From contig JASHPR010000469.1 of the NCBI GenBank assembly GCA_030038015.1, forward strand, positions 1 to 41,273: a stretch of 41,273 nt of DNA, given 5' to 3'. Of this stretch, positions 5,461 to 34,180 are shown one piece after another (position 1 is the first letter of the stretch; every line of letters begins with the position of its first letter). This DNA comes from Streptosporangiaceae bacterium (GTDB taxonomy: Bacteria; Actinomycetota; Actinomycetes; Streptosporangiales; Streptosporangiaceae). The notes under the pieces were generated by a model. The model worked only from the letters and a program-made list of their open reading frames with translations. It ran no database searches and was not told where the DNA came from. The position numbers were made by a program, and so were the translations under genes.

Positions 5461-7119
5461 ATGATCGACGTACGCAATCCTGGCGACGGGTTCACGTCAC
5501 TGCGCGCCCGCGTCAACGCCCTGGGGCCGCCCGCCGCCGGGGACCGCGGGCAGGACGGCGCCCCGCTGACCGTCGGCGAATGGGCTCTGCTCATAGACGA
5601 TATCGTCGCTCACCCGCGGGACAACACCGAGCCGTTGTGGAACGTAGCCGCCCCCGGGGAGGACAGCCGCGAGTACGACGCCATTTTCGTCGGCGGGGGC
5701 GCCGCCGGCCGGTTCGGCTCCGCGTACCTGAAGGCCAGGGGCGGCCGCCAGCTCACCGTGGACGCCTGGCCGTTCCTCGGCGGATCCTGCCCGCATCAGG
5801 CGTGCGTGCCGCACCACCTGTTCTCTGAATGCGCTCGCGAGCTCGACCTGGCCAGGCACATGCAGGGCCGGCTGTGGTACCCGCCTTTCGACGAGAAGCG
5901 AGCCAGCATCAGGGAAATCGTTGAGCTGTTCAAGGCCGGACGGGGATACCCGCACGCCATCATGAACTGGCAGTCCAAGGAACAGCTCGACATGGAGTAC
6001 ATCCTGAACGCAGCCGCCACGATCATCGATGAGCACACCATCGAGGTGGCGGGCCAGCGGTTCCGGGCCAGGAACCTGGTGCTATGCACCGGGGCGCGGA
6101 CCAGCTACCCCCAGGTGTCCGGCATCGCAACCAAGGGGGTCTACGACTTCGCCACCTTGATCGAGGGCCTCGATTACGAGCCGAACCGCTGTGTCATCGT
6201 CGGCGGCTCGAAGGTGGCCTTGGAGTACGGGTCGTTCTTCCAGGCCACCGGGTGCCAGACCACGATACTGACGCGCAGCCCGTTGATGGAGACGGCGAAC
6301 CTGCACCACGTTGACGCAGGGTTGCGAGACTACGTGGTCGCGATGATGGCCGACCGGGGCATCGGGATCGTAGTGGGGGCGGAACTCCTCGAGGTGCTGG
6401 GCGACGGCAAGGTCACCGGCGTCAGGTACCGGGAGCCCACCGGTGAGATCAGGCAGATCGACACCGACTTCGTGTTCGTCGGCACCGGGGAGCGCCCGGA
6501 CCTGAGCATGTACGCGCCGCTGGGGCTGGCGACCGACGCGCGGGGCTTCGTGGTCGCGGACACGCACATGCGGACCTCCGTGCCGGATGTCTACGCCGCG
6601 GGGGACCTGGTCGGCCCGCCGATGGAGATGTTCAAGGCGCGCAAGTGCGGCGTCGGCGCAGCCCGCAACATCATGGGCGACGACTATGAGTTCGACTACA
6701 CCGAATACCCGGACTTCCTGCACACCACGTACGAGGTGACCTGGTGCGGGCTGTCCGAGGCCGAGGCCCGCGCCAGGTACGGCAACGTCATAAAGATCCA
6801 GATGCCGCCGGACGACGCAGACCCGGAGACGTTCGCGCTGCCGGCCGCCGAGGGTTCCATGCTCTACGCGTTCACCCGGCCGATCCTGTCTGGCTGGCTC
6901 AAGCTCGTCATCGACGCGGACTCGCGCAAGGTCCTGGGCGCGCACCACGTCGGTTTCGGCGCCAAGGACGCCTTTCAGTACATCGACTACCTGATCCGCA
7001 GGCCCGAGGGCTTCACGATGGATGACATGGCCGAGCTGAACGAGCTGTTCCTCAACCCGGAGCACTTCATCCAGCTCTGCAGGCTGCGCGCTGGCCAGGT
7101 CAACCCGGTAAACCTGTGA
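5461..7119 (+). CDS. xecC: 2-ketopropyl-CoM oxidoreductase/carboxylase (2-KPCC) homologue
   Basis: EYDAIFVGGGAAGRFGSAYLKARGGRQLTVDAWPFLGGSCPHQACVPHHLFSECA; C-terminal ELNELFLNPEHFIQLCRLRAG; 2-KPCC rather than generic disulfide reductase signature. Confidence 0.88.
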   Translation: MIDVRNPGDGFTSLRARVNALGPPAAGDRGQDGAPLTVGEWALLIDDIVAHPRDNTEPLWNVAAPGEDSREYDAIFVGGGAAGRFGSAYLKARGGRQLTVDAWPFLGGSCPHQACVPHHLFSECARELDLARHMQGRLWYPPFDEKRASIREIVELFKAGRGYPHAIMNWQSKEQLDMEYILNAAATIIDEHTIEVAGQRFRARNLVLCTGARTSYPQVSGIATKGVYDFATLIEGLDYEPNRCVIVGGSKVALEYGSFFQATGCQTTILTRSPLMETANLHHVDAGLRDYVVAMMADRGIGIVVGAELLEVLGDGKVTGVRYREPTGEIRQIDTDFVFVGTGERPDLSMYAPLGLATDARGFVVADTHMRTSVPDVYAAGDLVGPPMEMFKARKCGVGAARNIMGDDYEFDYTEYPDFLHTTYEVTWCGLSEAEARARYGNVIKIQMPPDDADPETFALPAAEGSMLYAFTRPILSGWLKLVIDADSRKVLGAHHVGFGAKDAFQYIDYLIRRPEGFTMDDMAELNELFLNPEHFIQLCRLRAGQVNPVNL

Positions 7120-7862: not shown

Positions 7863-7878
7863 CGACCGGGAGGCTGCG

Positions 7879-10390: not shown

Positions 10391-10457
10391 CCCCCCGGCC
10401 CCGGTTGGGCCCGCCAGGACGAAGCCGCCGGTGCCCGGCCGCCGTAACGTCCAGGTC

Positions 10458-12403: not shown

Positions 12404-12607
12404 GCCGCGCGCGCAAGGCCGTCTTTCCTGTCCCGCAAGGGCCGGACCTGCCGGCGAGTTCGTCCAGGCAGGTCATGGCCGGCGGGGTGGCGCCGGACAC
12501 AGAGTGAACCGTGGGCCCAGGGGCCAGGCCAGCAGGGCACGGTGCTGCCGCAGCCTAGGCAGCCGCGCCACACATAGAGGAACCCGTGAGCTGGAGAGGT
12601 GACATCG

Positions 12608-13648
12608 ATGGAGATCCGCGGTGAAGAGGTGCTGCTTCCCGTCTCGGCCGTGTCGGCGTTCCCGCGGCCGCACTGGCTGCAGGGCCGCGTCCTCGGCTCG
12701 CTGAGCGAGCCCGTCTACCGCAGCCACAACCTGCGGGTGGCCTACGAGGACGCTTGCAAGATCTGCTCGCGCGAGCAGGAGAAGGCCGGGCTGGACATCC
12801 TGTGCGACGGTGCGCAGTACTACGAGTGGGAGGCGCCCGGGTTCCAGCTGGAGCCGATCTTCCACTTCATCCCGGAGAACCTGGGCGGTTTCGCACCGTA
12901 CGGCCCGCCGGGTGATGGGCCGAAGTACCGGCCGTTCTATCAGGCGCTCGTCAAAGACAAGATCACCTGGGAACGGCCGATCTTCGAAAGCGTGGTCATG
13001 ACCATGCAGAACGCCACCGACAAGCCGTTCAAGGTCGCGTTCCTCGGGCCCGCCCAGCAGAGCATCATCGTCAAGGACGAGTACTACGGTGACCAGCTCG
13101 CGGTGGCCAGGGACCTGGCGATCGCGCTGAACAAGGAGCTCAGGTACCTGGTGAGCATGGGCCTGGAGGCGGTGCAGCTGATCGACGTGCTGCCGCCGTA
13201 CACCACCGACATGTGGCAGATCGAGATGCAGAACATCCTGTTCGACGGGGTCGACGCGATCAAGTTCTGGCACGTCTGCTACGGCAGCGTGGACGGCCAG
13301 CGCGACGTGTTCGACGATCACGCCACGTCGATGATGCCGCTGTTCAAGGAGTCGCCCGCGGACGTGATCCACCTCGAGTTCACCAGCAAGGGCTTCAACG
13401 AGCTGGAGGCCTTCCGCGACTTCCCCACCGACAAGGTGCTCGGTGTCGGGGTGGTCGACGCCAAGAACCTGCAAGTGGAAACCGTCGAGCAGATCGAGGC
13501 CAGGATCCGCCGCGCGCTCGAGGTAGTGCCCGCCGGCCGGCTGCTGGTCGCGCCCGACTGCGGGCTCGGTTATTTCAGCCGCACCACCGCCTATGCGAAG
13601 CTGCGCAACATGGGCCAGGCGGCCCGGTCTGTGCGGAGCACGCTCTGA
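12608..13648 (+). CDS. MetE-family zinc transferase 1 (cobalamin-independent methionine synthase II/epoxyalkane:CoM transferase-like)
   Basis: SAFPRPHWL N-terminus; zinc ligand pattern FWHVCYG...IHLEFTSK...LLVAPDCGLGYFSR; alternative GTG start at 12599. Confidence 0.75.
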   Translation: MEIRGEEVLLPVSAVSAFPRPHWLQGRVLGSLSEPVYRSHNLRVAYEDACKICSREQEKAGLDILCDGAQYYEWEAPGFQLEPIFHFIPENLGGFAPYGPPGDGPKYRPFYQALVKDKITWERPIFESVVMTMQNATDKPFKVAFLGPAQQSIIVKDEYYGDQLAVARDLAIALNKELRYLVSMGLEAVQLIDVLPPYTTDMWQIEMQNILFDGVDAIKFWHVCYGSVDGQRDVFDDHATSMMPLFKESPADVIHLEFTSKGFNELEAFRDFPTDKVLGVGVVDAKNLQVETVEQIEARIRRALEVVPAGRLLVAPDCGLGYFSRTTAYAKLRNMGQAARSVRSTL

Positions 13649-14369: not shown

Positions 14370-14551
14370 CGCCGCGGGCGTGACCGTTCCCGGATCCGAT
14401 TCCACTGGTCTGGCGGGTCGAGCCCGAGCCGGTTCTTTGTCCCGGCAAGACCTGACCGCCACCGGGACGCTGCCGCATGCTCGTCCCTAAGCGACGTTGC
14501 CGGCCCGGCACCGTGGTGCGCTCACGGGCCGGTGGAAAGGCGAGGCGACAG

Positions 14552-15952
14552 ATGGCACGGCTCGTCGTGATCGGCGGAGGGGCCGCGGGGATGTCGGCCG
14601 CGTCCGCAGCCCGGCGGGTCGCGCCCGCGCTCGACGTGGTGGTCTGCGAGGCAGGCGGTTTCGCCGCCTACGGCATGTGCGGGATCCCTTACTTCCTCGG
14701 CGGCACCGTGCCGGAGGCGGAAGGCCTGCTCGCCTACCCGCCCAGCGAGTTCCGCGACCGGCGCGGCATCGACCTGCGGCTGCACACGCGGGTCACCGCG
14801 ATCGACACCTGCGCGCGCCAGGTGCACATCGCCGGCCCGGGCGGCGATGGCCCGCTCGGCTACGACGCGGCGGTCGTGGCCAGCGGCGCCGCGCCCGTGC
14901 GGCCGCCGGCACCCGGACTCGACGGGTCCCGGGTCTTCACGATCCGGTCGCTCGATGAGGCGATCGAGCTGCGGCGGCTGCTGGAGGGGGGCACCATCCG
15001 CCATGCCGTCGTGGTGGGAGCCGGGTACATCGGCTTGGAGGCGGCCGAGGCCCTGGTCTGCGCGGGCGCGGAGGTGGAGGTCATCGAGGCGCTACCGCGG
15101 GTGCTGGGCAACGTGGACGAGCCGGTCGCCGAGCTGGCCCGGGCCGAGATGGAACGGCACACCAGGCTGAGGCTGGGCGCCAGGCTGGGCGGGGTACGCG
15201 AGGGCGGGGGCTGGGGCGCGCTGACCGTGATGGTGGACGGTGCCGAGATCGGCACCGACCTGGTGGTCGTGGCGACGGGGGTGCGCCCGGCCACCGACCT
15301 GCTGATCCGCGCGGGCGCAGAGCACCTTCCGGATCGGTCGGTGCTGGTCGATGCGAGCATGCGCACGTCGCTGCCGGGTGTGTTCGCGGCCGGCGATTGT
15401 GTTGCGCTGCAGCACCGGGTGCTTGGCCGGCCGGCCTGGATACCGCTGGGTCCGGCCGCCAACAAGACCGGGCGGGTGGCCGGCACCGTCGCAGCCGGCG
15501 GTGCCGCTGCCTTCGCCGGCATCGTCGGCACCGCGGTGGTGAAGGTGTTCGACCTCGAGGTGGCGCGCACCGGGCTGACGCTCGCCGAAGCCCGGGCCGC
15601 GGGTCTGGCCGCCGCCGCCACCGATGTGGTCAGCCGGTCCCGGGCCAGGTACTACCCGGGCGCGCAGCCGCTGCACGTCAGGCTGGTGCACACGGCGGAG
15701 GGCCGGCTGCTCGGCGGCCAGCTGGCGGGCCGGGAGGGCGCGGCGAAACGCATCGACGTGCTGGCCACCGCGCTGCATGCCGGGCTGACGGTGACCGATC
15801 TGGCGGCGCTCGACCTCAGTTACGCGCCTCCGTTCGCCCCGGTCTATGACCCCGTGCTGGCCGCTGCGATCAAGGCCTGCGGTCTGGTGGCCAGCCCAGA
15901 ACCCGCGGCCGCCGGCGGTGCCGGGTGGCCAGCCGTCACTCTCGGAGGATGA
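14552..15952 (+). CDS. CoA-disulfide reductase-like FAD/NAD(P) pyridine nucleotide-disulfide oxidoreductase
   Basis: VVIGGGAAGMSAASAARR; active-site region YGMCGIPYFLGG; VVVGAGYIGLEAAEAL; VFAAGDCV. Confidence 0.8.
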   Translation: MARLVVIGGGAAGMSAASAARRVAPALDVVVCEAGGFAAYGMCGIPYFLGGTVPEAEGLLAYPPSEFRDRRGIDLRLHTRVTAIDTCARQVHIAGPGGDGPLGYDAAVVASGAAPVRPPAPGLDGSRVFTIRSLDEAIELRRLLEGGTIRHAVVVGAGYIGLEAAEALVCAGAEVEVIEALPRVLGNVDEPVAELARAEMERHTRLRLGARLGGVREGGGWGALTVMVDGAEIGTDLVVVATGVRPATDLLIRAGAEHLPDRSVLVDASMRTSLPGVFAAGDCVALQHRVLGRPAWIPLGPAANKTGRVAGTVAAGGAAAFAGIVGTAVVKVFDLEVARTGLTLAEARAAGLAAAATDVVSRSRARYYPGAQPLHVRLVHTAEGRLLGGQLAGREGAAKRIDVLATALHAGLTVTDLAALDLSYAPPFAPVYDPVLAAAIKACGLVASPEPAAAGGAGWPAVTLGG

Positions 15953-15954
15953 CC

Positions 15955-16869
15955 ATGAGCCTGCAGCCGCTGCGAGATAAGCGAGCCAGTCTTACCGACG
16001 CGATCGCACTGGTCGGTGACGACACGATCGTTGCGCTCGGCGGCGGGCTGTGCGCGCGGCTGCCCATGGCGATGGTGCGGGAGCTGGTCCGGCAGGGCCG
16101 CCGCGGCCTGCACGTGGTTGGGTCGGCCCACAGCATCGACGTGGACATGCTGGTGGCAGCCGGGGCCGTGCGCCGTCTCGAGGAAAGCTACGTGGGGTTC
16201 GAGCAGGACCTCGGCCTGGCGCCCGCCTACCGCCACGCGGCCGAGGAGGGCACCATCGAGGTGGCGGAGAGCTGCTGCGCGACCATTCTCGCCCAGCTGC
16301 GCGCCGCGGAGATGGGCCTTCCGTTCCTGCCGGTCCGCGGGGTCCGGGGGTCGGGCATCGCCGGGCTGCATCCCGAGTACGCCGAGATCACCTGCCCGTT
16401 CACCGGGGAGACCCTGGTCGCGGTGCCCGCGCTGCGCCCGGACGTCGCGCTGCTGCATGCGCCATCCGGGGACCGGTACGGCAACCTGCACCTGGAGCAG
16501 CCGTACGTCCTGGACGAGCGGGTTGCCGCCGCATCCCGGACGGTGATCGCGACCGTGGACGAGCTGGTGTCCACCGACGCCGTGGCCGCGTCCGGCGTCA
16601 CCATCCCCGGCCACCTGGTGGCTGCCGTGGCGGAGGTGCCGTTCGGCGCGCATCCGGCCTCCTGCTACCCGCGTTACGCCTACGACCGCAGCCACCTGCG
16701 CGAGTACGTGTCGGCAGCCCGGTCCGGACCGGCGGGGCTGGACAAGTACCTGGCCAGCTACGTGGATGGCGATGAGGAAAGCTACCGGGCGGCCGTCGGC
16801 CCCGGCCGCCTCGCCGCGCTGACCACCTGGTCGGAGTCCACCGCCGCGTGGCAGGAGCTGTTCGCATGA
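15955..16869 (+). CDS. CoA-transferase subunit A (glutaconate CoA-transferase-like)
   Basis: LTDAIALVGDDTIVALGGGLCARLPMAMVRELVRQGRRGLHVVGSAHSIDVDMLVAAGAVRRLEESYVGFE; alternate start 15949. Confidence 0.8.
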   Translation: MSLQPLRDKRASLTDAIALVGDDTIVALGGGLCARLPMAMVRELVRQGRRGLHVVGSAHSIDVDMLVAAGAVRRLEESYVGFEQDLGLAPAYRHAAEEGTIEVAESCCATILAQLRAAEMGLPFLPVRGVRGSGIAGLHPEYAEITCPFTGETLVAVPALRPDVALLHAPSGDRYGNLHLEQPYVLDERVAAASRTVIATVDELVSTDAVAASGVTIPGHLVAAVAEVPFGAHPASCYPRYAYDRSHLREYVSAARSGPAGLDKYLASYVDGDEESYRAAVGPGRLAALTTWSESTAAWQELFA

Positions 16870-17693
16870 GCTGGTCGATCGATGAATGGTTCGTTGTCGC
16901 GCTGGCCCGGACCATCCGGCCGGGCGAGACCGTGTTCCACGGGTTCGGCAGCCCGTGTGCGCAGGTCGCGATGCACGTGGCGCGGCATACCCACGCACCG
17001 GACATGCTGCTGGTCGAGGGCGCGACGTACGCGGTCAACCCCGATCCGCTGTTCATCCCGCCGACCAGCAACGATGCCAGCCTCAGCCGGGGTGCGGCCT
17101 ACAGCATGCGGTTCGAGGAGTTCTTTGACGCCGCCATCCGCGGTGACGTGGACCGTATGTTCCTGTCCGGCGGGCAGATCGACAGGTTCGGCAACACGAA
17201 CGTCACCGCAATCGGCCCGGCAGGCCGGCCGGAGGTGAAGCTGGGCGGGGGCGGCGGTGGCTGCAACCTGTCCGCGACGATCGGCGCGCTGACGCTATGG
17301 ACCACCCGGCACCGGTCCGGCCGCACCCTGGTGGAGAGCTGTGACTTCATCACCGACATGGGGCACCGTACCCCGCTGGGAACCCGGGCCGAGCTCGGCT
17401 TCACCGGTGGCGGCCCGCAGTGGCTGGTCACCGAGCTGGGCGTGTTCGACTTCCGGGATGGCCGCGCCCGCCTGGTTCTCCTCTTCCCGGACGTCAGCGT
17501 GGCCGAGATCCGCGCCGCCACCGGCTTTCCGCTGGAGGTGGCCGGTGACCTGCGTACCGTCGCGCCGCCGTCAACGGCCGAGCTGGCCGCGATCCGCTCG
17601 GTGGATCCGCTCAAGGTGCGCAGGTCGGAGTTCTCGCCCCGTGAGCTGGACCGGGTCTTCGAGCCCGGTGGCGGCCCGGACTGCGCATGCTGA
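16866..17693 (+). CDS. CoA-transferase subunit B
   Basis: ATGA overlap with subunit A; VEGATYAVNPDP, FLSGGQIDRFGNTNVTAIG, KLGGGGGGCNLSATIG. Confidence 0.8.
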   Translation: MSWSIDEWFVVALARTIRPGETVFHGFGSPCAQVAMHVARHTHAPDMLLVEGATYAVNPDPLFIPPTSNDASLSRGAAYSMRFEEFFDAAIRGDVDRMFLSGGQIDRFGNTNVTAIGPAGRPEVKLGGGGGGCNLSATIGALTLWTTRHRSGRTLVESCDFITDMGHRTPLGTRAELGFTGGGPQWLVTELGVFDFRDGRARLVLLFPDVSVAEIRAATGFPLEVAGDLRTVAPPSTAELAAIRSVDPLKVRRSEFSPRELDRVFEPGGGPDCAC

Positions 17694-19747
17694 CCGGCCG
17701 CGACGGCCTCGCCGCCGTCTTCGAGCCGCGCCGGGTGGCCCTGGTCGGTGCCTCCGACCGGGCCGGGACGGTGGGCCGGCTGCTGTGGGACAACCTGGCT
17801 GACTTCCCGGGTGAGGTGCTGCCGGTCTGCCCGGCGGCGACGGTCGGTGGCCAGCCGGCATACGCCGACCTGCGTGACGTTCCTGGCGACGTCGACCTCG
17901 CCGTCATCGCGACGCCGGCCGCCGCCGTGCCCGACATCGTCAGCGCCGCGGCGGACAAGGGGGTCAAGGCGGTGGTCGTGCTCAGCGCCGGGTTCGCGGA
18001 GGTGGGCGCCGAGGGGGCGAAACTGCAGGCGGACGCGGTGGCCGCGGCCCGGGCCGGCGGTGTGCGCCTGGTCGGGCCCAACTGTTTCGGCGTGCAGAAC
18101 GCGGGCCTGCCGCTCAACGCCTCCATCGCGGCCGGGGCCCCGCGCGGCGGCGGGGTGGCCGTCGTCACCCAGTCCGGGTCGTACGGCATGGCGGTGCACG
18201 AGCTCGGCCGGGATGAGGGACTGGGTGTCGGCAAGGTGTTCGCGGCCGGCAACAAGGCGGACATCACCGACGCGGAACTCCTCGCCTACCTGCGCCAGGA
18301 TCCGGAGACGACCGTGATCTGCCTGCTGCTCGAGTCGATCACCGACGCCCGCCGGTTTTTCACCGAGGCCTGCCTCACCACCAGCGTCAAGCCGGTCATC
18401 GTGGTCATCGGCGGGCGCACCGGGGCTGGGCGGCGGGCCGCAGTGTCCCATACGGCCGCGCTGGCCACCGACGACGCGGTGCGCGACGCCGCGATGCGGC
18501 AGGCGGGGGTGGCCCGGGTCCGCACCGGGCTGCAGGCCCTGGACGCGGCGCGGGCCCTGTCCGGCCAGCCGCTGCCGCGCGGGCCCCGGGTCGGGGTGGT
18601 GACCAACTCCGGGGGCACCGGTGTGGAACTGGCCGACCTGCTGGCTGACGAAGGCCTGGCGGTTCCCGAGCTGAGCGGGCCGCTGCAGGACAAGCTGCGG
18701 GCGCTGCTGCCCGGCTATGCCAGCGCGCGCAACCCGGTGGACATGACCCCGGCCTGGCGGCTGTTCACCACCCTGTACCCGGCCGCGATCGAGATGCTGG
18801 CCCGCTCCGGTGAGGTCGATGTGGTCGTGCCGGTGCTGCTGCAGCGCTCCGCGTCGCCAGAGGTGGCCGTGGCCGTGCGGGACGCGGTGGCCCGGCTGCG
18901 GCGGGACGGGGTACCGGTGCCGGTCTATGTCTGCTGGGTGGCGCCGCGCACCGCGGACCCGCACGCGAGCCTGCTCCAGAACGCAGGAGTGCCGTGCTTT
19001 GCGTGGCCGGAGCGTACCGCCCGGGCGGCCGGCACCGCCGTCCGCTGCGGCCTGCGGGTGGCCCAGGGGCCGGACGCGGCGCCGCCGCGGCCGGCGAAAC
19101 GGGCAGTGCTCCCGCCCTCCAGCGGGCTGCTTCCCGCCACGACCGCACGGGATCTGCTCGCTGATGCCGGGATCCCGGTTGCCGAGACCATCCGGTGCAC
19201 CAGCGCGCAGGCCGCGGCCGCGGCCGCGGATCGGGTCGGCTACCCCGCCGTCGTCAAGGTCGACCACCCGGACCTGACGCACAAGAGCGACGTGGGCGGG
19301 GTGCGGCTGGCGCTTGCCGACCGGGCGGCGGTCCGGGCAGCAGCGGCTGACCTGCTCAGGCTGGCTGAGGGAGCGGCCGTCGTGGTGCAGCAGCAGCTCG
19401 AGGGTGTCGAGCTGCTGGTCGGCGGGGTCCGCGACCCGGAGTTCGGGCCGATGGTGCTGGCCGGCCTCGGCGGCGTGCTCGCGGAGACCTGGCGCGACGT
19501 CCAGCTGGCGGTCGCGCCGGTGGACCGGGCGCACGCGACCGCCATGCTGACATCGCTGCGCAGCGCGGACATCTTCAGCGGGCTGCGGGGCCGGCCTCCG
19601 GTGGACCTTGGGCCCGTCGCGGCCGTGATCGCGTGCGTCGGCGATCTGATGGCCGGCAACCCGGAGATAGCCGAGCTCGACTTGAACCCGGTGCTGGCCA
19701 CCGGCACCTGGTGCGCCGCGGCTGACTGGCGGATCCGGATCCGCTGA
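17687..19747 (+). CDS. Acyl/acetyl-CoA synthetase, NDP-forming, fused alpha-beta
   Basis: CoA-binding RRVALVGASDRAGTVG, VSHTAALATDD catalytic His region, C-terminal ATP-grasp YPAVVKVDHPDLTHKSDVGGVRL, AELDLNPVLA. Confidence 0.85.
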   Translation: MLTGRDGLAAVFEPRRVALVGASDRAGTVGRLLWDNLADFPGEVLPVCPAATVGGQPAYADLRDVPGDVDLAVIATPAAAVPDIVSAAADKGVKAVVVLSAGFAEVGAEGAKLQADAVAAARAGGVRLVGPNCFGVQNAGLPLNASIAAGAPRGGGVAVVTQSGSYGMAVHELGRDEGLGVGKVFAAGNKADITDAELLAYLRQDPETTVICLLLESITDARRFFTEACLTTSVKPVIVVIGGRTGAGRRAAVSHTAALATDDAVRDAAMRQAGVARVRTGLQALDAARALSGQPLPRGPRVGVVTNSGGTGVELADLLADEGLAVPELSGPLQDKLRALLPGYASARNPVDMTPAWRLFTTLYPAAIEMLARSGEVDVVVPVLLQRSASPEVAVAVRDAVARLRRDGVPVPVYVCWVAPRTADPHASLLQNAGVPCFAWPERTARAAGTAVRCGLRVAQGPDAAPPRPAKRAVLPPSSGLLPATTARDLLADAGIPVAETIRCTSAQAAAAAADRVGYPAVVKVDHPDLTHKSDVGGVRLALADRAAVRAAAADLLRLAEGAAVVVQQQLEGVELLVGGVRDPEFGPMVLAGLGGVLAETWRDVQLAVAPVDRAHATAMLTSLRSADIFSGLRGRPPVDLGPVAAVIACVGDLMAGNPEIAELDLNPVLATGTWCAAADWRIRIR

Positions 19748-19839: not shown

Positions 19840-19937
19840 GGCTGGCAGTCCGGCAGATATTCGTCTCCCCGGGGGGAACTCCATGTTTGGTTTCCGAAGT
19901 ACTATCCGCCTATCGCGGTCACGAGGTGGTGGGCAAG

Positions 19938-20546
19938 ATGACCGGACCAGTGCCCAGCGGCATCGATGACATAGGCCTGGCGCCGGGGAGTCACGTATGC
20001 GCGTTCTACCGCGGGGACGCTGACCGGGACCGGCTGCTCACCGGCTACCTGGGCGCGGGACTGGCCGCCGGGGACAAGTGCATCTGCGTCGTCGACTCTG
20101 CGCTCACGGCAAAGCGGCTGAAGTCGTTGCCCCGCTCCCGCAGCCAGCCCGGCCCGCCGGACGGGCAGCTGGATATTCACCTTCCTGAGTCGACCTACCT
20201 GGCCGGCGGCGAGTTCACGACCAGCCACATGCTCGCGTTCTGGACCGAAAGCATGATCAAGGCGGAGATCGACGGCTACTCGTTCTTCCGCCTGGCCGGC
20301 GAGATGACCTGGGCTCTGCGGGACGCGCCCGGGGTGGAGCACCTGATCGGCTACGAATCCGAGCTGAACCGGGTCACCTCCAGCTACCCGGTCATCGTGC
20401 TCTGCCTGTACGACCTGGACCGGTTCAGCGGCGAGATCGTGGTGAACGTCGTGAAGACTCATCCGCAGGTGCTGGTCCAGGGCATCCTCGTGGAGAATCC
20501 TTACTACGTCGGGCCTGATGAGTTTCTCAGGTCGGCGGGCGCCTGA
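19938..20546 (+). CDS. MEDS-domain (DcmR-like sensory) protein 2
   Basis: LAPGSHVCAFYRGDADRDRLLTGYLGAGLAAGDKCICVVD...IGYESELNRVTSSYPVIVLCLYDLDRFSGEIVVNVVKTHPQVLVQG; parallels 13746..14369. Confidence 0.75.
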   Translation: MTGPVPSGIDDIGLAPGSHVCAFYRGDADRDRLLTGYLGAGLAAGDKCICVVDSALTAKRLKSLPRSRSQPGPPDGQLDIHLPESTYLAGGEFTTSHMLAFWTESMIKAEIDGYSFFRLAGEMTWALRDAPGVEHLIGYESELNRVTSSYPVIVLCLYDLDRFSGEIVVNVVKTHPQVLVQGILVENPYYVGPDEFLRSAGA

Positions 20547-20555
20547 CCCGCTGCG

Positions 20556-22313
20556 ATGGCTGCCGAACGAACCGCAGCAGACGGGCTGGCGCCCCCGGCT
20601 GTGCTCCGCCCCGGCGCACCCGCGGACGGCGCGCCGCGCGCAGCACCCAGGGACACCGCGCAGGAGAACCTGCGGGAGCGGCTGAGTGAGTTCCGGGCGT
20701 TGCTGGTGATCTCGCTGCTGATGACCGAGTCGGTCAATGAGGACCAGATCCTGGAACTCGCTGCCTCGTCGGCACCGGGTCTTGGCTCGTGGCGGGTCGA
20801 AGGCTACAGCTTCACCGACGGCCAGTGGCGTCCCGGCATCCTCTGCCCCGATCCCTCGCCCCGCGGCCTGGCCGGCCAGCTGGCCACGCTGAGCGCCGCC
20901 GGCGGCAAGGTGGAGCTGCCCGGCCGCGGATGGGCGTGGGCGTACCCGCTGCGTGGCGCCGATGGCCTGCTGGGCCACCTTGTCGCGTCCTGTGACCTGG
21001 AGCCATCCGCGGAGGAGCGGTTCTTGATCCAGGTGCTCGCGCAGCAGACCGGCGTTGCCGTGTCGAACGCCCGGCTGCACGCCAAGGAGCGCGCCACCGC
21101 GGCGGAGCTCGCCGCCACGAATGCCACCCTGGCCGGCACGGTGACCAGCCTGCAGCGCAGCATGGACATCCATGAGCGGCTCACCCGGGTGGCGGTCTCC
21201 GGTGAAGGCCAGCCGGGAATCGCCGGGGCGCTGCACGAGCTCACCGGCATGCCAGTGGCGATCGAGGACCGGTACGGCAACCTGTCCGCCTGGGCCGGGC
21301 CGGGCCAGCCCAGCCCTTATCCGAAGGAGTCCTTCGCCAAGCGTGAGCAGGTGCTCCGCCGGCTCATGCGGGCCGGCAGGCCGGTTCGCGATGGGGAACG
21401 GCTCATCCTGCTCGCCTCCCCGCGATCCGACGTGATCGGCGTGCTGGCGCTCATCGACCCCGGGCACAGGGCCGACAAGGCCGACCTGGTGGCCCTGGAG
21501 CACGGGGCGACCGTGCTCTCGATGGAGCTGGCCCGGCTGCGTGGCATCGCCGATACCGAGCTGCGGCTGCGCCGCGATCTCGTGCACGACCTCCTGGCCG
21601 GGATCGACGATGAGAGCGCGCTGCCCCGGGCCGAGGCTCTTGACTATGACCTGCGGCGCCCGCACCGGGTGGTGCTCGTCGAGGGCAGAGGACGCGCCCG
21701 GGCCCACGACGCCCTGCTGGGCGCGGTCCGGCGGGCCATGCGCCGAGGGCGGCAGGCGGGGCTGTTCGAGACCTGGTCCGGCGACGTCGCCATCGTCACC
21801 GCCGATCAGGTCCCCTGGGAGCAGTTCCGGCGCGCGATCATGTCCGACATCGGCGGTCAGTGCTACATCGGGGTCGGCGGCTTCTGTGCCCGTCCCTCGG
21901 AGCTGCCGCGGTCGCTGCGCGAGGCGCAGCTGGCGCTGCGGCTGCAAAAGACGCTGCTGCCAGGAAGCGGCGCGTGCGAGTACCCCAAGCTCGGCATCTT
22001 CCGCATGCTCGCGGCCATCCCGGACCTCAGCGACGTGGACAGGTTTGTCCGGGAGTGGCTCGGCAGCCTGCTCGACTACGACGAGCGCCGCAAGGCAGAA
22101 CTGGTGCATACGCTGACCCAGTACCTCGAGCATGGCGGCAATTACGATGCCACCGCCGCCGAGTTGTCGGTGCACAAGAGCACGCTGAAGTACCGGCTGC
22201 AGCGGATCCGCGAGCTGACCGGGCTGGAGCTGAACGACCCCGACGTTCACTTCAACCTGCAGCTCGCCACCCGGGCCTGGGGGACACTCCAGGCCCTGCA
22301 CGACGAGCGCTGA
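20556..22313 (+). CDS. PucR-family transcriptional regulator 2
   Basis: LSVHKSTLKYRLQRIRELTGLELNDPDVHFNLQLATRAW; long paralogy with 8669..10390. Confidence 0.85.
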   Translation: MAAERTAADGLAPPAVLRPGAPADGAPRAAPRDTAQENLRERLSEFRALLVISLLMTESVNEDQILELAASSAPGLGSWRVEGYSFTDGQWRPGILCPDPSPRGLAGQLATLSAAGGKVELPGRGWAWAYPLRGADGLLGHLVASCDLEPSAEERFLIQVLAQQTGVAVSNARLHAKERATAAELAATNATLAGTVTSLQRSMDIHERLTRVAVSGEGQPGIAGALHELTGMPVAIEDRYGNLSAWAGPGQPSPYPKESFAKREQVLRRLMRAGRPVRDGERLILLASPRSDVIGVLALIDPGHRADKADLVALEHGATVLSMELARLRGIADTELRLRRDLVHDLLAGIDDESALPRAEALDYDLRRPHRVVLVEGRGRARAHDALLGAVRRAMRRGRQAGLFETWSGDVAIVTADQVPWEQFRRAIMSDIGGQCYIGVGGFCARPSELPRSLREAQLALRLQKTLLPGSGACEYPKLGIFRMLAAIPDLSDVDRFVREWLGSLLDYDERRKAELVHTLTQYLEHGGNYDATAAELSVHKSTLKYRLQRIRELTGLELNDPDVHFNLQLATRAWGTLQALHDER

Positions 22314-22524: not shown

Positions 22525-23628
22525 ATGCTCGTCGGCGGTCAGGAGATCTTGCTGCCCACCACTATGGTCGGCAACTACCCCAATCCACGGTGGTATGACG
22601 GGCACGCGTTCGCCACGCTGCCCAAGGGTGAGTTCATCCACGACTCGATCAGCAAGGAGGCATTCGAGGACGTGGTCGGTGCGATCGTGCATGACCAGGA
22701 AGCGGCTGGCCTGGACGTGATCAGCGACGGAAAGGTGTACGGCGGCGATTCCCCATACGGCACGATCCTCTACTACTACCTGGAGCGTGTTTCCGGCTAC
22801 CGGCTGTCCGGGCCGCCGATCGGGTTGCCCATCTACTCCACCTTGTACTCCCCCACCTGCATCGGGGAGATCCGCCGGGAGGTCCCGTTCCACCTGGTCA
22901 ACCTGCGCGCGGTGCGGAAGGCGACGAAGAAGCCGGTCAAGGTGTCCTACACGGGCCTGGGCGTGATCGCCGCAGCCACCACGAACCTGCACTACAAGGA
23001 CACGAGGGAAATCGCCATGGCGCTGGCCAGGGCGTTCAACGAGGACTTCAGGGAACTCGCCGACAATGGCTGCGACATCATCCAGCTGGACGAGTTCGTC
23101 TGGCCGTACGGCATGGGCGACTGGGAGATCGAGGCGCTCAACGCCGCGGTCGAGGGTGTGGACTGCCAGTTCTGGGTGCACACCTGCTGGGGCAACTACT
23201 CCGGCACGCCCGCCTACTTCCCGGATGAGACGGAAACCGAGTTCGGCGCCTTCGTGCTCGACAAGCGCGCTGCCGACGCCCCGGCGCCGGAGCGCGCATG
23301 GGCGATCTTCCCGCACGTGCTGAACGCGAACATCCACGCGCTGAATTACGAGGTCGGCCGCACCGGGCCGGACGACCTCAAGCCGCTCACCGACAACAAC
23401 TGGTCAAAGCCGTTCGTGGCAGGCGTGATCGACGTCAAGTCCACGGTCACCGAGAGCGCCGATGAGGTCGCCGACCGGATCAGGCAGGTCCTCGAGTACG
23501 TCCCGGCGGACCGGCTCGGGCTGTCCACCGACTGCGGGCTGATCAACTTGCCACGGATGATCGCCGCGGGCAAGCTGCGGGCACTCGCCGACGGCGCCGC
23601 CCTGGTCCGCGCGGAACTCCGAGCCTAG
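22525..23628 (+). CDS. MetE-family zinc transferase 2 (epoxyalkane:CoM transferase-like)
   Basis: AAGGAG RBS; LLPTTMVGNYPNPRWY; zinc pattern WVHTCWG...NYEVGR...LGLSTDCGLINLPR. Confidence 0.75.
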   Translation: MLVGGQEILLPTTMVGNYPNPRWYDGHAFATLPKGEFIHDSISKEAFEDVVGAIVHDQEAAGLDVISDGKVYGGDSPYGTILYYYLERVSGYRLSGPPIGLPIYSTLYSPTCIGEIRREVPFHLVNLRAVRKATKKPVKVSYTGLGVIAAATTNLHYKDTREIAMALARAFNEDFRELADNGCDIIQLDEFVWPYGMGDWEIEALNAAVEGVDCQFWVHTCWGNYSGTPAYFPDETETEFGAFVLDKRAADAPAPERAWAIFPHVLNANIHALNYEVGRTGPDDLKPLTDNNWSKPFVAGVIDVKSTVTESADEVADRIRQVLEYVPADRLGLSTDCGLINLPRMIAAGKLRALADGAALVRAELRA

Positions 23629-23857: not shown

Positions 23858-24619
23858 GTGCCGGATGCACCCACGTTCCTGACCCTGCCAGCCCGGTCTG
23901 CCAAGCCGCGCACCCGCGGGATCACCCATGTTCTGGACTCCGGGCTGACGCCGGACGCCACCCGTGCCTTCCTCGAACAGGCTGCGCACCTGGTGGACAT
24001 CGTGAAGGTCGGCTGGGGCATCGGCTACGTGGATCCGGCCCTGAGCGTCCGGGTGAGCATGTGCCAGCGGTACGGCTGCCCGGTGTCGCTCGGCGGAACC
24101 CTGCTTGAGATAGCCGCGCTGCAGAACCGGGTCGCCGAGCTGCGGGACTGGGCAGGCGGCATCGGCGTCACCCACATGGAGGTGTCGAACGGGCTCTGCG
24201 CGCTGCCGGAGGGCCGCAAGCAGGAACTGATCACGGAGCTTGCCGCCGACTTCGTGGTGCTCGCCGAAACCGGCGCGAAGGACGGCAGCTACCCGCCGAC
24301 GCCGGCGGAGTGGGTCAAGGAGATGAGCCGCGACCTCGACTGCGGTGCCTCATGGGTAATCGCCGAAGGCCGGGAGAGCGGGACCGTGGGACTCTACCGC
24401 GCCGACCGTGGGGTCCGGGAGGACGTGGTCTCGGCCATCCTCGGCGTGATCCCGCAGGACAAGGTGATCTTCGAAGCGCCAGCCAAGAATCAGCAGGCCT
24501 GGTTCATCTGTCAGCTCGGCGCTGAGGCCAACATCGGCAACGTGGCGCCGTCCTGCGTGCTGCCGCTGGAGACACTCCGGCTCGGGCTGCGTGCGGACAC
24601 CGCCGGGCGGGCGCGCTGA
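23858..24619 (+). CDS. comA: Phosphosulfolactate synthase (ComA/XcbB-like), coenzyme M biosynthesis
   Basis: PRTRGITHVLDSGLTPDATRAFLEQAAHLVDIVKVGWGIGYV; VTHMEVSNG; VIAEGRESGTVGLY; VIFEAPAKNQQAWFICQLGAEANIGNVA; GTG start with GGAG upstream. Confidence 0.85.
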   Translation: MPDAPTFLTLPARSAKPRTRGITHVLDSGLTPDATRAFLEQAAHLVDIVKVGWGIGYVDPALSVRVSMCQRYGCPVSLGGTLLEIAALQNRVAELRDWAGGIGVTHMEVSNGLCALPEGRKQELITELAADFVVLAETGAKDGSYPPTPAEWVKEMSRDLDCGASWVIAEGRESGTVGLYRADRGVREDVVSAILGVIPQDKVIFEAPAKNQQAWFICQLGAEANIGNVAPSCVLPLETLRLGLRADTAGRAR

Positions 24620-24620
24620 C

Positions 24621-25586
24621 ATGAGCGCGGAGCCCGGGACCGGGGAACCGCAGCCCAACATGATCACCCGCCCGTATCGCGGCCTGTCGGTGCAGGACGT
24701 TGACATCCCGCTGATCCCATCGCGCATCGAGGCCCTGCTGCGAAGCCGCGACATCTACCGGCGGACCACGTTCATCGTCCTGCGCAACGGGCCGCGAGCT
24801 GCGCTGGTCGCGGTGCGGCCGGAGCGCCCGGGCCAGCTTTTCTCGCCCGTGGCGGAGCTGCGTGTGCTGTCCGGCCCGACTGCCACGCTGTGGATCGATG
24901 AGCCCTCGGCGGATGTCGGCAACGCGTCGGCCCTCGCCGCCGCCGCGCTCGCGCACCGCCGCGACGGCGTCCTCGCCTACGTGGTCCACGGTCGCTTCGA
25001 GCATGTGAACTTCATCTGGCGGCCGGCACCGCTCACCGTCCGCGTGACCGAGGTCGTCCCCCCGCACCCGCCGAAGCTCCTGGCCATGGCCGAGCAGGTG
25101 ATCGCCTTCGACGAGGATCTGCCGCCGGTCACGCTCGCGCTTGACGCCGTCGACGTGCGGCAGCTCATGGCGGCCACTCCGGCACCTCACTATCTGCTGC
25201 CCTGCCGCGGCAGCGGCGTGGCAGCCAGCCAGGAGGTCAGCTTCCTGGACTGCCATCCGCCCTACCACCCGGACTGGCTGCTGATCGGCTGTGACCGGTC
25301 CCGCCAGTTCCACCAGCACTTCTACGGTGCCGAACCCAGGCGCGTCGAGCTGTGCCCCAAGCTGCGGGCGGCCAGCCTGCCGGGCGCGCGCGTGCTCACC
25401 AAATGCTGCCTGCTGGAACGGGGCGTTCAGGTGGATGGCACGACGGCGGTGGTGCCCTGGGGGGCAAACCTCGACGAGGTGCGCACCGCGCTGCGCGCGC
25501 TCTGTGGCCTGGCACCGGCTGATCCGCCGGCTCTCACCGCCCTGGCCTCGCCACCGGCGCTGGCCCTCCCGGGTGCCGGCCGGTGA
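24621..25586 (+). CDS. Conserved-looking protein of unknown function with 7 Cys in C-terminal half, inside CoM biosynthesis block
   Basis: ATG 1 nt after comA stop; HYLLPCRGSG, FLDCHPPYHPDWLLIGCDRSRQFHQHFYG, ELCPKL, LTKCCLLERG; 4-nt overlap with next gene. Confidence 0.8.
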   Translation: MSAEPGTGEPQPNMITRPYRGLSVQDVDIPLIPSRIEALLRSRDIYRRTTFIVLRNGPRAALVAVRPERPGQLFSPVAELRVLSGPTATLWIDEPSADVGNASALAAAALAHRRDGVLAYVVHGRFEHVNFIWRPAPLTVRVTEVVPPHPPKLLAMAEQVIAFDEDLPPVTLALDAVDVRQLMAATPAPHYLLPCRGSGVAASQEVSFLDCHPPYHPDWLLIGCDRSRQFHQHFYGAEPRRVELCPKLRAASLPGARVLTKCCLLERGVQVDGTTAVVPWGANLDEVRTALRALCGLAPADPPALTALASPPALALPGAGR

Positions 25587-26941
25587 GCACCGCGCACCCC
25601 GCCGACTCGCGCGTCTACGGCCACCTGTGGTCCACGCCGGAGGTGTCCGCGCTGTTCACCGACGAGGGCAGGACCCAGGCGTGGCTGGACATCCTGGCCG
25701 CGCTTGCGCAGGCACAAGCCGATGTCGGGCTGGTGCCGCGCGGCGCCGCGGACGCCATAGAAGCCAATGCCGATGTCTCCCGGCTGGATCTTGCCCTGGT
25801 GGCCGAGCAAACCAGGGCCACCGGCCACTCAACCCTCGGGCTGATCCGGGCGCTGCGCAGCATCCTGCCGGCGGAGGCGCGCGAGTGGGTCTACTACGGT
25901 GCGACCGTACAGGACGTGTCCGACACCTGGTTCGCCCTGGTCTTCAAGACCCTGGGTGCCATCGCCGAGCGCGACGTGGGCAGGATGCGGGACCGTGCCC
26001 TGGCTCTGGCCGCCGAGCACCGCGACAGCCCGATGTGCGGGCGCTCCCACGGTCAGCCCGGCCTGCCGGTCACGTTCGGCTTCAAGGCGGCCGTGTGGGC
26101 CATGGAACTCGACCGGCACCTGGCACGTCTCCGGCAAGGCCGGAACCGCTGGGAGCTTGTCCAGCTCGGCGGCGCGCTCGGCACGATGGAGTTCTGGGGT
26201 GAGCGCGCGCTCGGCCTGCTCGACGCCTTCGCGGCCCGGCTCGGCCTGGACGCCCCGGACGTGCCGTGGCTCACCTCGCGCGATGGCGTCGCGGAGTTCG
26301 TCTGGCTGCTCGCGGCGATCTCGGCAACGACCGGCAAGATCGGCAACGAGGTCTACCAGCTGCAGCGGCCAGAGATCGGCGAGGTCCGCGAGACGTTCAC
26401 CCCCGGCACAGTCGGTTCGATCACCATGCCGCACAAGCGCAACCCGGAGATCTCTGAGCACCTGGTCACCCTGTCCCGGGCGGCCCGGGCGCAGGCTGGG
26501 CTGGCCCTGGAGGGGATGGTCTGCGAGCACGAGCGTGATGGGCGCGCATGGAAGACCGAGTGGCTGGTGGTGCCCGAGACCGCCATGTACTTCGCGGCCT
26601 GTGTGGACGCGGGCGCGAGGATGCTCGAGGGCCTGTGTGTCGACACCGGGCGGATGCTCGCCAATCTCCGCGCCCACCGCGGGTACCTGCTCTCCGAGCC
26701 AGTGATGCGCGCGCTCGCCAGCACGCTCGGCAAGCACACCGCGCACGAGGCCGTGTACGCGGCCGCCATGGCCGGCATCGACAATCAGCAAGACTTCCGT
26801 GCCGCCCTGCGGGCCGACTCCCGCCTGGACGCCATCTCCGATGCTGAGCTGGACGAGTTGCTCGATGTCCGGGCCTCGCTCGGCTCATGTGCCGCGTTCG
26901 TTGACCGGGCCCGCCGGGCCTGCACCGGGGCCCCGCGGTGA
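25583..26941 (+). CDS. Aspartase/fumarase superfamily lyase 1 (adenylosuccinate lyase/CMLE-like; XcbC/D-type candidate)
   Basis: Superfamily signature GSITMPHKRNPEISE; GRSHGQPGLPVTFGFKAAVWAMEL. Confidence 0.85.
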   Translation: MSTAHPADSRVYGHLWSTPEVSALFTDEGRTQAWLDILAALAQAQADVGLVPRGAADAIEANADVSRLDLALVAEQTRATGHSTLGLIRALRSILPAEAREWVYYGATVQDVSDTWFALVFKTLGAIAERDVGRMRDRALALAAEHRDSPMCGRSHGQPGLPVTFGFKAAVWAMELDRHLARLRQGRNRWELVQLGGALGTMEFWGERALGLLDAFAARLGLDAPDVPWLTSRDGVAEFVWLLAAISATTGKIGNEVYQLQRPEIGEVRETFTPGTVGSITMPHKRNPEISEHLVTLSRAARAQAGLALEGMVCEHERDGRAWKTEWLVVPETAMYFAACVDAGARMLEGLCVDTGRMLANLRAHRGYLLSEPVMRALASTLGKHTAHEAVYAAAMAGIDNQQDFRAALRADSRLDAISDAELDELLDVRASLGSCAAFVDRARRACTGAPR

Positions 26942-27972
26942 CGGCCGAGTATGCCGGCATGGCGGCACCTCCCGGCTCCGCGGTGGCCTCGCCAGGCGCG
27001 GGGCCCTTGGCACGTTATCCCCGCGTCCGTCTCGTCCTGGAGCCAACGCCGCTTCATCCGGCGCCGCGGCTGTCCCGCGAGCTTGGCGTGCCGGTCCTGC
27101 TCAAACGCGACGACCTGGCCGGCGTCGGCCTTGGCGGCAACAAGCTGCGCGGGCTTGAGTACCTCATCGCCGACGCGCTCGGGCGTGGCTGTGACTGCCT
27201 GGTCACCGGCGCGGGCCCGCTGTCGAACTGGACAATGCTCGCCGCGCTGGCGTGCCTGCGGCACCAGATAGAGCCGCACATCGTGTGCTACGGCAGCTCA
27301 GCCGCTGACGAGGGCAACATGCGGCTGCACCGCTGGCTCGGGGTGGACCTACGGTTCACCGGTGACCCGGACCGGTCCTCAGTGGATGCCGGCATCGAGG
27401 CGGTCACGGCTGAGCTGCGCGCCGCAGGCAGCCGCCCGTACCCCATCCCGCGCGGCGGCGCGACTCCGCTCGGCGCGCTCGGCTACGTTCGCGCCAGTGT
27501 CGAGCTGGCCACCCAGCTGGATGCGCTTGGCGAGCGGCCCGCCGCGCTGTGGCTGGCGACCGGGTCGTGCGGCACGCAGGCCGGCCTGGTGGCCGGCGCG
27601 GCCCTGACCGCCGCGCCCTACGAGGTTGCCGGCGTCACCGTGAGCAGGCCCGTCGCTGACAGCCGCGAGCGGGTGCGGGTGCTGGCGGCCGGGGCTGCCG
27701 CGCTGGGCGGCATCCGCGCCCCGCTGAGGGAACCTGTTGTGCTCGGCGGCTGGATCGGGCCAGGCTATGGCGCCGCGTCGCGGGAGGGCCGGGCAGCGGC
27801 ACGCCTGGTGGCGACGATGGAAGGCGTCTTCCTCGACCCGGTGTTCGGGGCGAAGGCGATGGCCGCGCTGATCGCGGAGTGCCGGGCCGGCCGGGTCCGC
27901 GGCACCCAGGTTTTCCTGGTCTCCGGTGGTGCGCCCACGCTGTTCACCGGGGCAGATGGCGGCGTGCCATGA
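26938..27972 (+). CDS. PLP-dependent D-cysteine desulfhydrase/ACC deaminase-like enzyme (XcbE-type candidate)
   Basis: VPVLLKRDDLAGVGLGGNKLRGLEYLIADAL (PLP Lys in GGNKLR); TGAGPLSNWTMLAALAC; ATGSCGTQAGLVAGA. Confidence 0.85.
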   Translation: MTAEYAGMAAPPGSAVASPGAGPLARYPRVRLVLEPTPLHPAPRLSRELGVPVLLKRDDLAGVGLGGNKLRGLEYLIADALGRGCDCLVTGAGPLSNWTMLAALACLRHQIEPHIVCYGSSAADEGNMRLHRWLGVDLRFTGDPDRSSVDAGIEAVTAELRAAGSRPYPIPRGGATPLGALGYVRASVELATQLDALGERPAALWLATGSCGTQAGLVAGAALTAAPYEVAGVTVSRPVADSRERVRVLAAGAAALGGIRAPLREPVVLGGWIGPGYGAASREGRAAARLVATMEGVFLDPVFGAKAMAALIAECRAGRVRGTQVFLVSGGAPTLFTGADGGVP

Positions 27973-29513
27973 ACGGGGAGCCCCGCGTGGGCCCGCGACA
28001 GCCGCCGGAGGGCTACCTGGGTGCCACGGCCAGGATTACCAGCGGCCCCGCGCCGGAACTGGTTGCGGCCGGGTACGCGCTGGAGATCGCCGACGCTCCG
28101 CTGCTGCACCGCGGGCTGACCCTCGCCGATCTCGCCCACATGGTCGAGCTGGTCCGGTGCGGCGCCCTGTCGCGCGGGGAGGCGGCGCCGCTGTGCGCGG
28201 TGCTGCTCGGCCTGCTGGACTCCCCGCCAGCCGCGTTCCCTTACGACCCCGTGTACGGCGATGCGTACAACAGCAGGGAGCGGGAGCTGCAGCGACTCCT
28301 TGGCCAGGCGGCCGGCTGGCTGCACCTCGGCCGCACCCGCAGGGAGGCAGGCCGCATCGCTTTCCGGCTCGCGCTGCGCGGCAAGCTGCTCAGCCTGCAC
28401 GCCGATGTCATCGCATTCGCCGACGTAGCGGGCGGCCTCGAGGCCGAGCACGCCGCCACGATGTGGGCGGACAGCACCTATCTCCAGCCAGCGCAGCCGT
28501 CAACGTTCGGCCACTACCTGGGCGCGTTCGCAGAGCAGGCCGTACGGAACCTGGACCGTATCAAGGCCGCGTACGGCCATGCTGACATCTCGCCTGCGGG
28601 CGCCGGCGGGGCGGGCGGCTCCAGGCTGCCGCTGGACCGTGCCCGTCTTGCCCGGCTGCTCGGCTTCGGCTCCGTCGGCGCGAACACCCGCGACGCGATG
28701 TGGTCGACCGATGTGCTGGCGGATGCCATCGGTGCGGCGACACTCACCGTCGCGAGCCTTGAACAGCTGGCTGCGGATCTGGAGATATTCGCCAGCCCGG
28801 CATTCGGCTACGTGACGCTCGATGCCTCGCTATGCCGGGCCAGCGTGCTGATGCCGCAAAAGCGCAACCCTTACGCGCTTCCCGTGCTGCGGGGCGGAGC
28901 CGGAACGCTGGTCGGCCGCCTCACGGGGCTGCTCGCCACCGGCCTGACCCCATCGGCCCGCACCGACAACTGGCTCTACGCCTACGGTGAGGTCGCTGGC
29001 GCGATCGACCTGGCCGGGCGGCTCGTCCGCCTGGGATCCGCCGTGCTGGCCGGCCTGAGTGTGGACATCAGCGTGCTGGGGGAGCAGGCGGCCAGGGACT
29101 TCACCCTGGCGGCAGACCTTGCCGAGGACCTGTCGCTGCGCTTGCGGCTCGACTACCGCACCGCTTACCGCGTCGTCGGCCGGGCCGTTGCCACCGCCGC
29201 GGACAGCGGTGCGGCCGAGCTGACGGCGGCGCTTGTCAGCGCCGCAACCGCAGACATCACCGGAGCGCCGGAGCCGGCCGCGGCAGAGGCGGCCGCGGCA
29301 GAGGCGGTCGCCGCCGCAACGGATCCCGTCTCGGCCGTGACCGCCCGGGATGGCCTGGGCGGCGCGAGCCCCCGGCGGGTGCGGGAGCACGCGAGGCGCG
29401 TGCGCAGACGGGCGACGGCAGCGCGGCGGTGGAACTCCGGCCGCCGGGCCCAGATGGCCGAAGCCGAAGCTGCCCTGATCCGGGCGGTGCGCGACCTTCT
29501 GGAGCAGGCGTGA
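27969..29513 (+). CDS. Aspartase/fumarase superfamily lyase 2 (argininosuccinate lyase-like; XcbC/D-type candidate)
   Basis: ASVLMPQKRNPYALPVLRG signature; ATGA overlap with PLP gene; C-terminal Ala/Glu-rich extension. Confidence 0.8.
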   Translation: MNGEPRVGPRQPPEGYLGATARITSGPAPELVAAGYALEIADAPLLHRGLTLADLAHMVELVRCGALSRGEAAPLCAVLLGLLDSPPAAFPYDPVYGDAYNSRERELQRLLGQAAGWLHLGRTRREAGRIAFRLALRGKLLSLHADVIAFADVAGGLEAEHAATMWADSTYLQPAQPSTFGHYLGAFAEQAVRNLDRIKAAYGHADISPAGAGGAGGSRLPLDRARLARLLGFGSVGANTRDAMWSTDVLADAIGAATLTVASLEQLAADLEIFASPAFGYVTLDASLCRASVLMPQKRNPYALPVLRGGAGTLVGRLTGLLATGLTPSARTDNWLYAYGEVAGAIDLAGRLVRLGSAVLAGLSVDISVLGEQAARDFTLAADLAEDLSLRLRLDYRTAYRVVGRAVATAADSGAAELTAALVSAATADITGAPEPAAAEAAAAEAVAAATDPVSAVTARDGLGGASPRRVREHARRVRRRATAARRWNSGRRAQMAEAEAALIRAVRDLLEQA

Positions 29514-33319: not shown

Positions 33320-34180
33320 TGGCTTCCGGGATGTCCGGCTCAGCGATATTGACGAGGCTGCGGTTCGCCGCTGGCGCATGGAACGTCTCGATACCGGCTC
33401 TCGGGCGCAGCGGCCGTTCGGGCCGGTCACGGTGGCCAAGGCCTACCGGTTGCTGCATGCCATCTTCGAGACCGCCGTAGATGATCAGATGGTCCGCCGT
33501 AACCCGTGCCGGATCGAGGGCGCGGGCAAGGAGGAGTCGCCGGAGCGGGAGGTCGTTTCGCTGCCTGTCGTGTTCGCTATCGCTGACGCGCTTCCCGTGC
33601 GCTACCGCGCGATGGCGCTGCTGGCGACGTTCGCGATCATGCGCTGGGACGAGCTGGTCGGCCTTCGCCGGGAGAACATCGACCTGGACGCGTGCGAGAT
33701 CCGGATCGTCGAGACGACGGCCGAGCTGGACCGGGGAGGCCTGCTGCCCGAGACTCCTAAATCACGGGCCGGTCGGCGGACGGTGACGTTCCCGGCCGAG
33801 CTGGTGCCCGAGTTGCGCTGGCATCTGGAACGGTTCGCCCAGGCGGGGGAGCGGGGCCTGGTCTTCGCGGGGCCGAAGGGCGCTGCGCTGCGCCGGTCCA
33901 ACTTCCGGCCGATCTGGAACGCCGCGTGTGACCGGGCTGGCATGCCCGGCCTGCACTTCCACGACCTGAGACACGTGGGTGGGACGCTGGCCGCGGCCAC
34001 CAGGCGAGCCTTAAGGAGCCGATGGCCCGGCTGGGGCATTCGAGCACGCGCGCTGCGATGATCTACCAGCACGCGACCAGAGACCGCGACCAGGCCATCG
34101 CCAAGGCCCTCGGCGGCCTGGTCCAACAGGTCCGCGTCACCACTGCGAATCCGCCAGAAGAGGCCAGCGGTGACGCCTAG
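33320..34180 (+). pseudogene. Tyrosine-type site-specific integrase, N-terminally truncated and frameshifted
   Basis: GFRDVRLSDIDEAAVRRWRMERLD...FAIMRWDELVGLRRENID...HFHDLRHVGGTLAAAT, then another frame EPMARLGHSSTRAAMIYQHATRDRDQAIAKALG. Confidence 0.85.

Follow-up and report, generated by a model that had tools for sequence, protein, structure and literature searches.

Here we show that an uncultivated actinomycete of the family Streptosporangiaceae carries a five-gene operon which, as read from its sequence, represents a complete bacterial gene set for coenzyme M (CoM), predicted to encode ComA/XcbB, XcbA, XcbD, XcbE and XcbC. With high confidence, we propose that all five are transcribed as a single unit, which would make CoM by the bacterial (Xcb) route for a neighbouring epoxyalkane:CoM transferase pathway. 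The DNA analysed, referred to here as the window, is an entire contig of 41,273 nucleotides from a 6.69 Mb genome in 786 contigs (91% complete, 6.9% contamination). The operon is not new, being a further member of a published type: the same cluster was described in Mycolicibacterium and Nocardioides JS614 (PMC8727900, 2021), and CoM biosynthesis clusters have been reported in methanotrophs (PMC11507031, 2024). Its presence puts the full bacterial pathway to CoM in the same uncultivated actinomycete as epoxide genes of both the propene and the ethene type, and adds to the evidence that aerobic, CoM-using consumption of alkenes and epoxides is patchily spread through the actinobacteria.

A sequence-only reading of the window had claimed a five-gene CoM operon at 23858-29513, with genes separated by 1-nt gaps or overlapping by 4 nt. 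Open reading frames and family matches bear this out, the ORF calls giving five co-directional genes on the + strand, the first pair separated by 1 nt and each later pair overlapping by 4 nt. These are comA/xcbB (23858..24619; GTG start, 253 aa, GGAGG 6 nt upstream), xcbA (24621..25586; ATG start, 321 aa, 1-nt gap after comA), xcbD (25583..26941; GTG start, 452 aa, 4-nt overlap with xcbA), xcbE (26938..27972; GTG start, 344 aa, 4-nt overlap with xcbD) and xcbC (27969..29513; ATG start, 514 aa, 4-nt overlap with xcbE). In gene order, the Pfam domains are ComA, DUF7714 (E-value 1.8e-86), Lyase_1 with ADSL_C, PALP (3e-36) and Lyase_1, the two Lyase_1 matches having E-values of 3e-33 and 5e-31. 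All frames are open, third-position GC (GC3) is 0.86-0.89 across the five genes, and each gene has a dN/dS of ~0.2-0.25 against its nearest relative, the complete locus L011 (75-80% protein identity); on the strength of these two measures, the five frames are taken to be coding.

The best models in NCBIfam (release 20.0) for genes two to five are those of XcbA (NF052538, 402 bits, cut-off 150), XcbD (NF052536, 679 bits, cut-off 600), XcbE (NF052537, 315 bits) and XcbC (NF052535, 363 bits). The last two scores fall under the exception-level cut-offs of 450 and 575, respectively, as do those of Nocardioides sp. JS614 (XcbE 313, XcbC 378) and Mycolicibacterium chubuense NBB4 (XcbE 310, XcbC 399), whereas the Xanthobacter autotrophicus Py2 proteins pass them with 525 and 783 bits. 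Since the alkene degraders JS614 and NBB4 score alike, the cut-offs mirror a Py2-centred model and no failing of the window genes, and for the same reason we do not use them to define the operon.

Both lyases belong to the aspartase/fumarase superfamily, and model scores together with motifs assign lyase 1, which is adenylosuccinate-lyase-like, to XcbD, and lyase 2, which is argininosuccinate-lyase-like, to XcbC, a predicted phosphosulfolactate phosphate-lyase. XcbD is 45% identical to Py2 XcbD1, with the motifs TGHST, GATVQD and GSITMPHK kept in both, and XcbC is 38% identical to Py2 XcbC1. XcbC motifs were compared among the window, Py2, JS614, NBB4, Methylocystis and the actinobacterial loci, using only loci in which the regions are complete. 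RREA, TYLQ.AQP and RxSxx[ML]PQKRNPY occur in every complete XcbC, that of Py2 included, and are absent from Escherichia coli ArgH. Relative to ArgH, RSRND has thus become R-x-R-R-E-A, THLQ has become TYLQ, and the loop GSSLMPQKKNPD has become (A/S/T)SxxxPQKRNPY following an Arg; the window protein itself, instead of the ArgH signatures RSRND, THLQ and GSSLMPQKKNPD, has RTRREA, TYLQ and RASVLMPQKRNPY. It also scores 212 bits on the argH equivalog, against a cut-off of 279.5. Best model and subfamily motifs therefore set this XcbC-type lyase apart from ArgH, and an ArgH/PurB identity was rejected for both lyases on model scores and motifs. The XcbC-specific arginines, missing in ArgH, could hold phosphate or sulfonate; a PDB search returned no solved structure of XcbC or XcbD. 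The sequence-only reading would have been refuted by lyases lacking the sulfonate-binding residues of XcbC1 and XcbD1; at the level of motifs, the window lyases agree with those of Py2. It had also assigned the two lyases to different subfamily flavours: the adenylosuccinate-like and argininosuccinate-like pair is indeed present, but it makes no difference from Py2, which has the same pair.

The comA product is a predicted phosphosulfolactate synthase, which would act on sulfite and phosphoenolpyruvate (PEP), and it matches PF02679 with 250.9 bits (E 1.5e-74). On the archaeal ComA equivalog TIGR03849 it scores 209 bits, under the cut-off of 280, and an archaeal-type identity was rejected on that score. 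Its PDB relatives are 1u83 and 1qwg. The protein is 36% identical to Py2 ComA, where a 'KKD' stands in place of the 'AKD' of actinobacterial ComA, a substitution that we counted against the CoM-operon reading, together with the scores of ComA, XcbE and XcbC under their curated cut-offs. XcbE is a PLP enzyme of the D-cysteine desulfhydrase family that keeps the PLP-lysine motif GGNK and is 48% identical to Py2 XcbE1; its best model is that of XcbE.

The block was claimed to correspond, in actinobacteria, to the Xanthobacter genes, and this holds, in that every gene has a Py2 homologue at 36-48% identity. Best-match searches of the whole genome agree, with Py2 XcbC1 and ComA matching only the window gene, XcbE1 matching the window gene first, and the XcbD model likewise returning the window gene as its best hit. 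The Py2 set (xcbA1-E1 on pXAUT01) adjoins XecA, 2-ketopropyl-CoM oxidoreductase/carboxylase (2-KPCC) and two short-chain dehydrogenase (SDR) genes, and it is arranged A-B-C-D-E, in contrast to B-A-D-E-C in the window. By tblastn, the order comA-xcbA-xcbD-xcbE-xcbC recurs outside the window in 16 actinobacterial loci (JS614, NBB4 and 14 others), and annotation places it also in a second NBB4 plasmid and, across phyla, in Methylocystis iwaonis. JS614 pNOCA01 and the NBB4 plasmids share not only the five genes and their order (53-60% identity to the window operon proteins for JS614) but also neighbours, namely EtnE, CoA-transferases, acyl-CoA ligase, SDR, disulfide reductase, and MEDS and PucR regulators. 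They differ from the window in that their CoM operon diverges from the catabolic genes, whereas in the window all lie on the + strand, with the operon downstream of the transferase. The Methylocystis iwaonis plasmid pSS37A-Re-1 has the identical order at 38-45% identity, and no epoxyalkane:CoM transferase or epoxide genes are annotated within the 17 kb inspected. This locus (L050, 7175-12749) is thus a complete CoM operon with no CoM consumer apparent in its surroundings.

What surrounds the window operon gives it a likely purpose. An epoxyalkane:CoM transferase (EaCoMT) of the EtnE/XecA type, the CoM consumer, lies 229 nt upstream of comA (22525..23628, +); it is 80% identical to JS614 EtnE and 50% to Py2 XecA, and has the HxC and DCGL zinc-ligand motifs. 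Farther upstream on the same strand are a 2-KPCC-like enzyme (5461..7119; 54% identity with its Py2 counterpart across 523 columns) and two SDR dehydrogenases (7116-7862 and 7843-8652; Pfam adh_short_C2), homologues of which adjoin the KPCC gene in Py2; we regard the two SDRs as candidate hydroxyalkyl-CoM dehydrogenases. A CoA-disulfide-reductase-like flavoprotein (14477..15952, +; TIGR03385 358 bits, cut-off 579) precedes CoA-transferase subunits (15925-16869 and 16848-17693, +) and an ADP-forming-type acyl-CoA ligase (17687-19747, +), assigned by Pfam and found as the same block in JS614. These are followed by a MEDS-domain sensor (19887-20546, +) and a PucR-type regulator (20556-22313, +), also Pfam assignments, which form the same pair in JS614 and NBB4. 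Because the transferase, the 2-KPCC-type enzyme, the SDRs, the CoA-transferases, the ligase and the reductase flank the operon, its CoM probably serves alkene-epoxide breakdown. CoA-transferase/synthetase genes have been linked to ethylene assimilation and 2-KPCC to propylene assimilation (PMC6440738), and the contig holds both.

The flavoprotein is a candidate CoM (mixed) disulfide reductase with an accessory role. Its CG[IL]PY cysteine motif is present in 13/13 homologues near xcb operons, and the xcb operons of at least a dozen actinobacterial loci have a CoA-disulfide-reductase-like gene with this motif nearby.

In the proposed pathway, ComA would join sulfite to PEP, giving phosphosulfolactate, and XcbC would eliminate phosphate to yield sulfoacrylate, two steps established in Py2 (Partovi et al. 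2018, as reviewed in PMC8727900). XcbD, going by its NCBIfam name '3-sulfopropionylcysteine synthase', would add cysteine to sulfoacrylate to form the 3-sulfopropionyl-cysteine adduct. The step then left over would fall to XcbA and is most likely a decarboxylation yielding S-sulfoethyl-cysteine; XcbE would release free CoM by PLP-dependent cleavage of a C-S bond, and the CoA-disulfide-reductase-like protein nearby may hold CoM in its reduced form. The sequence itself shows which genes are present, their order, their conservation, the motifs they retain and their neighbours; what each protein does in this organism, how the late steps follow one another, the part played by XcbA and the function of the reductase are inferred. 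Wu et al. 2022 reportedly speak in their abstract of decarboxylation, thiolation and reduction, which is not a neat fit to the NCBIfam name of XcbD.

Several other explanations of the operon can be weighed against CoM synthesis. Matches to Pfam and PDB alone would place the lyases and the PLP enzyme in the ArgH, PcaB/PurB and D-cysteine desulfhydrase families, so that ordinary enzymes of these kinds might stand beside a ComA homologue by chance; moreover, no argH scores above cut-off elsewhere in the incomplete genome, so that in principle XcbC might do its work. The Xcb models nevertheless outscore the generic ones throughout (XcbD 679 vs purB 255, XcbC 363 vs argH 212, XcbE 315 vs D-cysteine desulfhydrase 224), the catalytic-loop and histidine motifs of ArgH are altered in the XcbC manner, and a chance assembly is hard to square with a five-gene order kept across phyla, all of which makes this explanation very improbable. 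We consider it just as improbable that the product is another sulfonate, for example sulfolactate or cysteate. ComA homologues of Bacillus also serve sulfolactate formation, a point that we count in favour of such a product, along with the annotation of PDB 1u83 as a phosphosulfolactate synthase and the 233 bits that XcbE also scores on the D-cysteate sulfo-lyase model. Against it, the XcbE model is ahead of the latter by 82 bits, and the cluster around the operon also holds a CoM transferase of the EtnE type and an enzyme of the 2-KPCC type.

A relic operon, decayed or silent, is the least credible of these alternatives, with hardly any probability left to it. The deposited xcbA of Py2 is frameshifted, which indicates that decay or sequencing error does occur in the family, and no consensus sigma-70 promoter was found at the window operon by a scan that covers actinobacterial promoters poorly. 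This weakness of the scan in turn weakens the argument for a relic, as do the five open frames and the purifying selection seen against L011. We therefore retain CoM synthesis as the preferred reading of the operon.

XcbA is the least understood component of the operon. The sequence-only reading called the second gene unknown; this has to be corrected, as the gene belongs to the named family XcbA (DUF7714). The name xcbF1 had been given to a conserved protein of 308 residues and unknown function that is encoded in the clusters of mycobacteria and JS614 (PMC8727900), and XcbA is listed among the CoM biosynthesis enzymes of Py2 (PMC11507031). The window protein is 41-46% identical to the Py2 homologue, which aligns in two pieces. 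The Py2 gene lies directly upstream of xcbB1; a frameshift divides it in the deposited sequence (L009 10647-11578; pXAUT01 85861-86792), where it carries no annotation. Linkage to the pathway is close: all six XcbA-bearing records among 72,556 plasmid records also carry xcb genes, and XcbD adjoins XcbA in 4/4 XcbA-bearing genomes among 60 relatives, the genome of the window included. Across 25 homologues, C195, C224, C245, C262, C263, H128 and H231 are invariant. A structure predicted from 21 sequences, with plasmid-record rows left out, reached a mean pLDDT of 88.9 and a pTM of 0.84; searched against the PDB, it matched no chain at E <= 0.001, the best match being at 2.7e-3, with TM-scores near 0.1. 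By elimination, XcbA probably carries out the remaining, decarboxylating step of the pathway. A more specific proposal, that it is an enzyme of unsolved fold whose five-Cys/two-His active site decarboxylates a sulfopropionyl-thioether in an unusual reaction of bacterial CoM synthesis, is put forward only tentatively, and we lean against it. XcbA is closely linked to the operon across two phyla, and its conserved Cys/His core lends itself to direct biochemical tests. In Methanosarcina acetivorans, used as a control genome, the XcbA model gave a match below cut-off, possibly an archaeal relative in a CoM-making methanogen.

Compared with JS614 and NBB4, the window is also set apart by the alkene monooxygenase, no gene for which was found among the ORFs scanned on the contig, and the epoxide source is accordingly not local, a further point against the CoM-operon reading. 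The genome contains one soluble di-iron monooxygenase set, split between two contigs, with the alpha subunit (37% identical to EtnC) on C385 and the reductase, beta and coupling genes on C254, in an order that appears to resemble that of propane monooxygenases. A genome search for a particulate-type monooxygenase gave no match, with an uninformative control.

No tRNA on the contig marks an integration site. A phage-integrase-family ORF (33378-34061) lies about 4 kb downstream of the operon and hints at a mobile origin; XcbA is carried by only 4 of 60 related genomes, including that of the window.

A further difference from JS614 and NBB4 is a block at 10431-13648, in which a second MetE-like gene, divergent in sequence, comes after a pyruvate-dehydrogenase-type E1 alpha/beta pair. 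This MetE-like gene bears the HxC and DCGL zinc motifs and is 29% identical to the window EaCoMT, and 28-31% to EaCoMT and archaeal MetE-like proteins. The block may be another CoM-dependent module, one that includes a thiamine-diphosphate enzyme, and the same three genes recur in locus L028 (17984-21064), where they adjoin a CoM operon.
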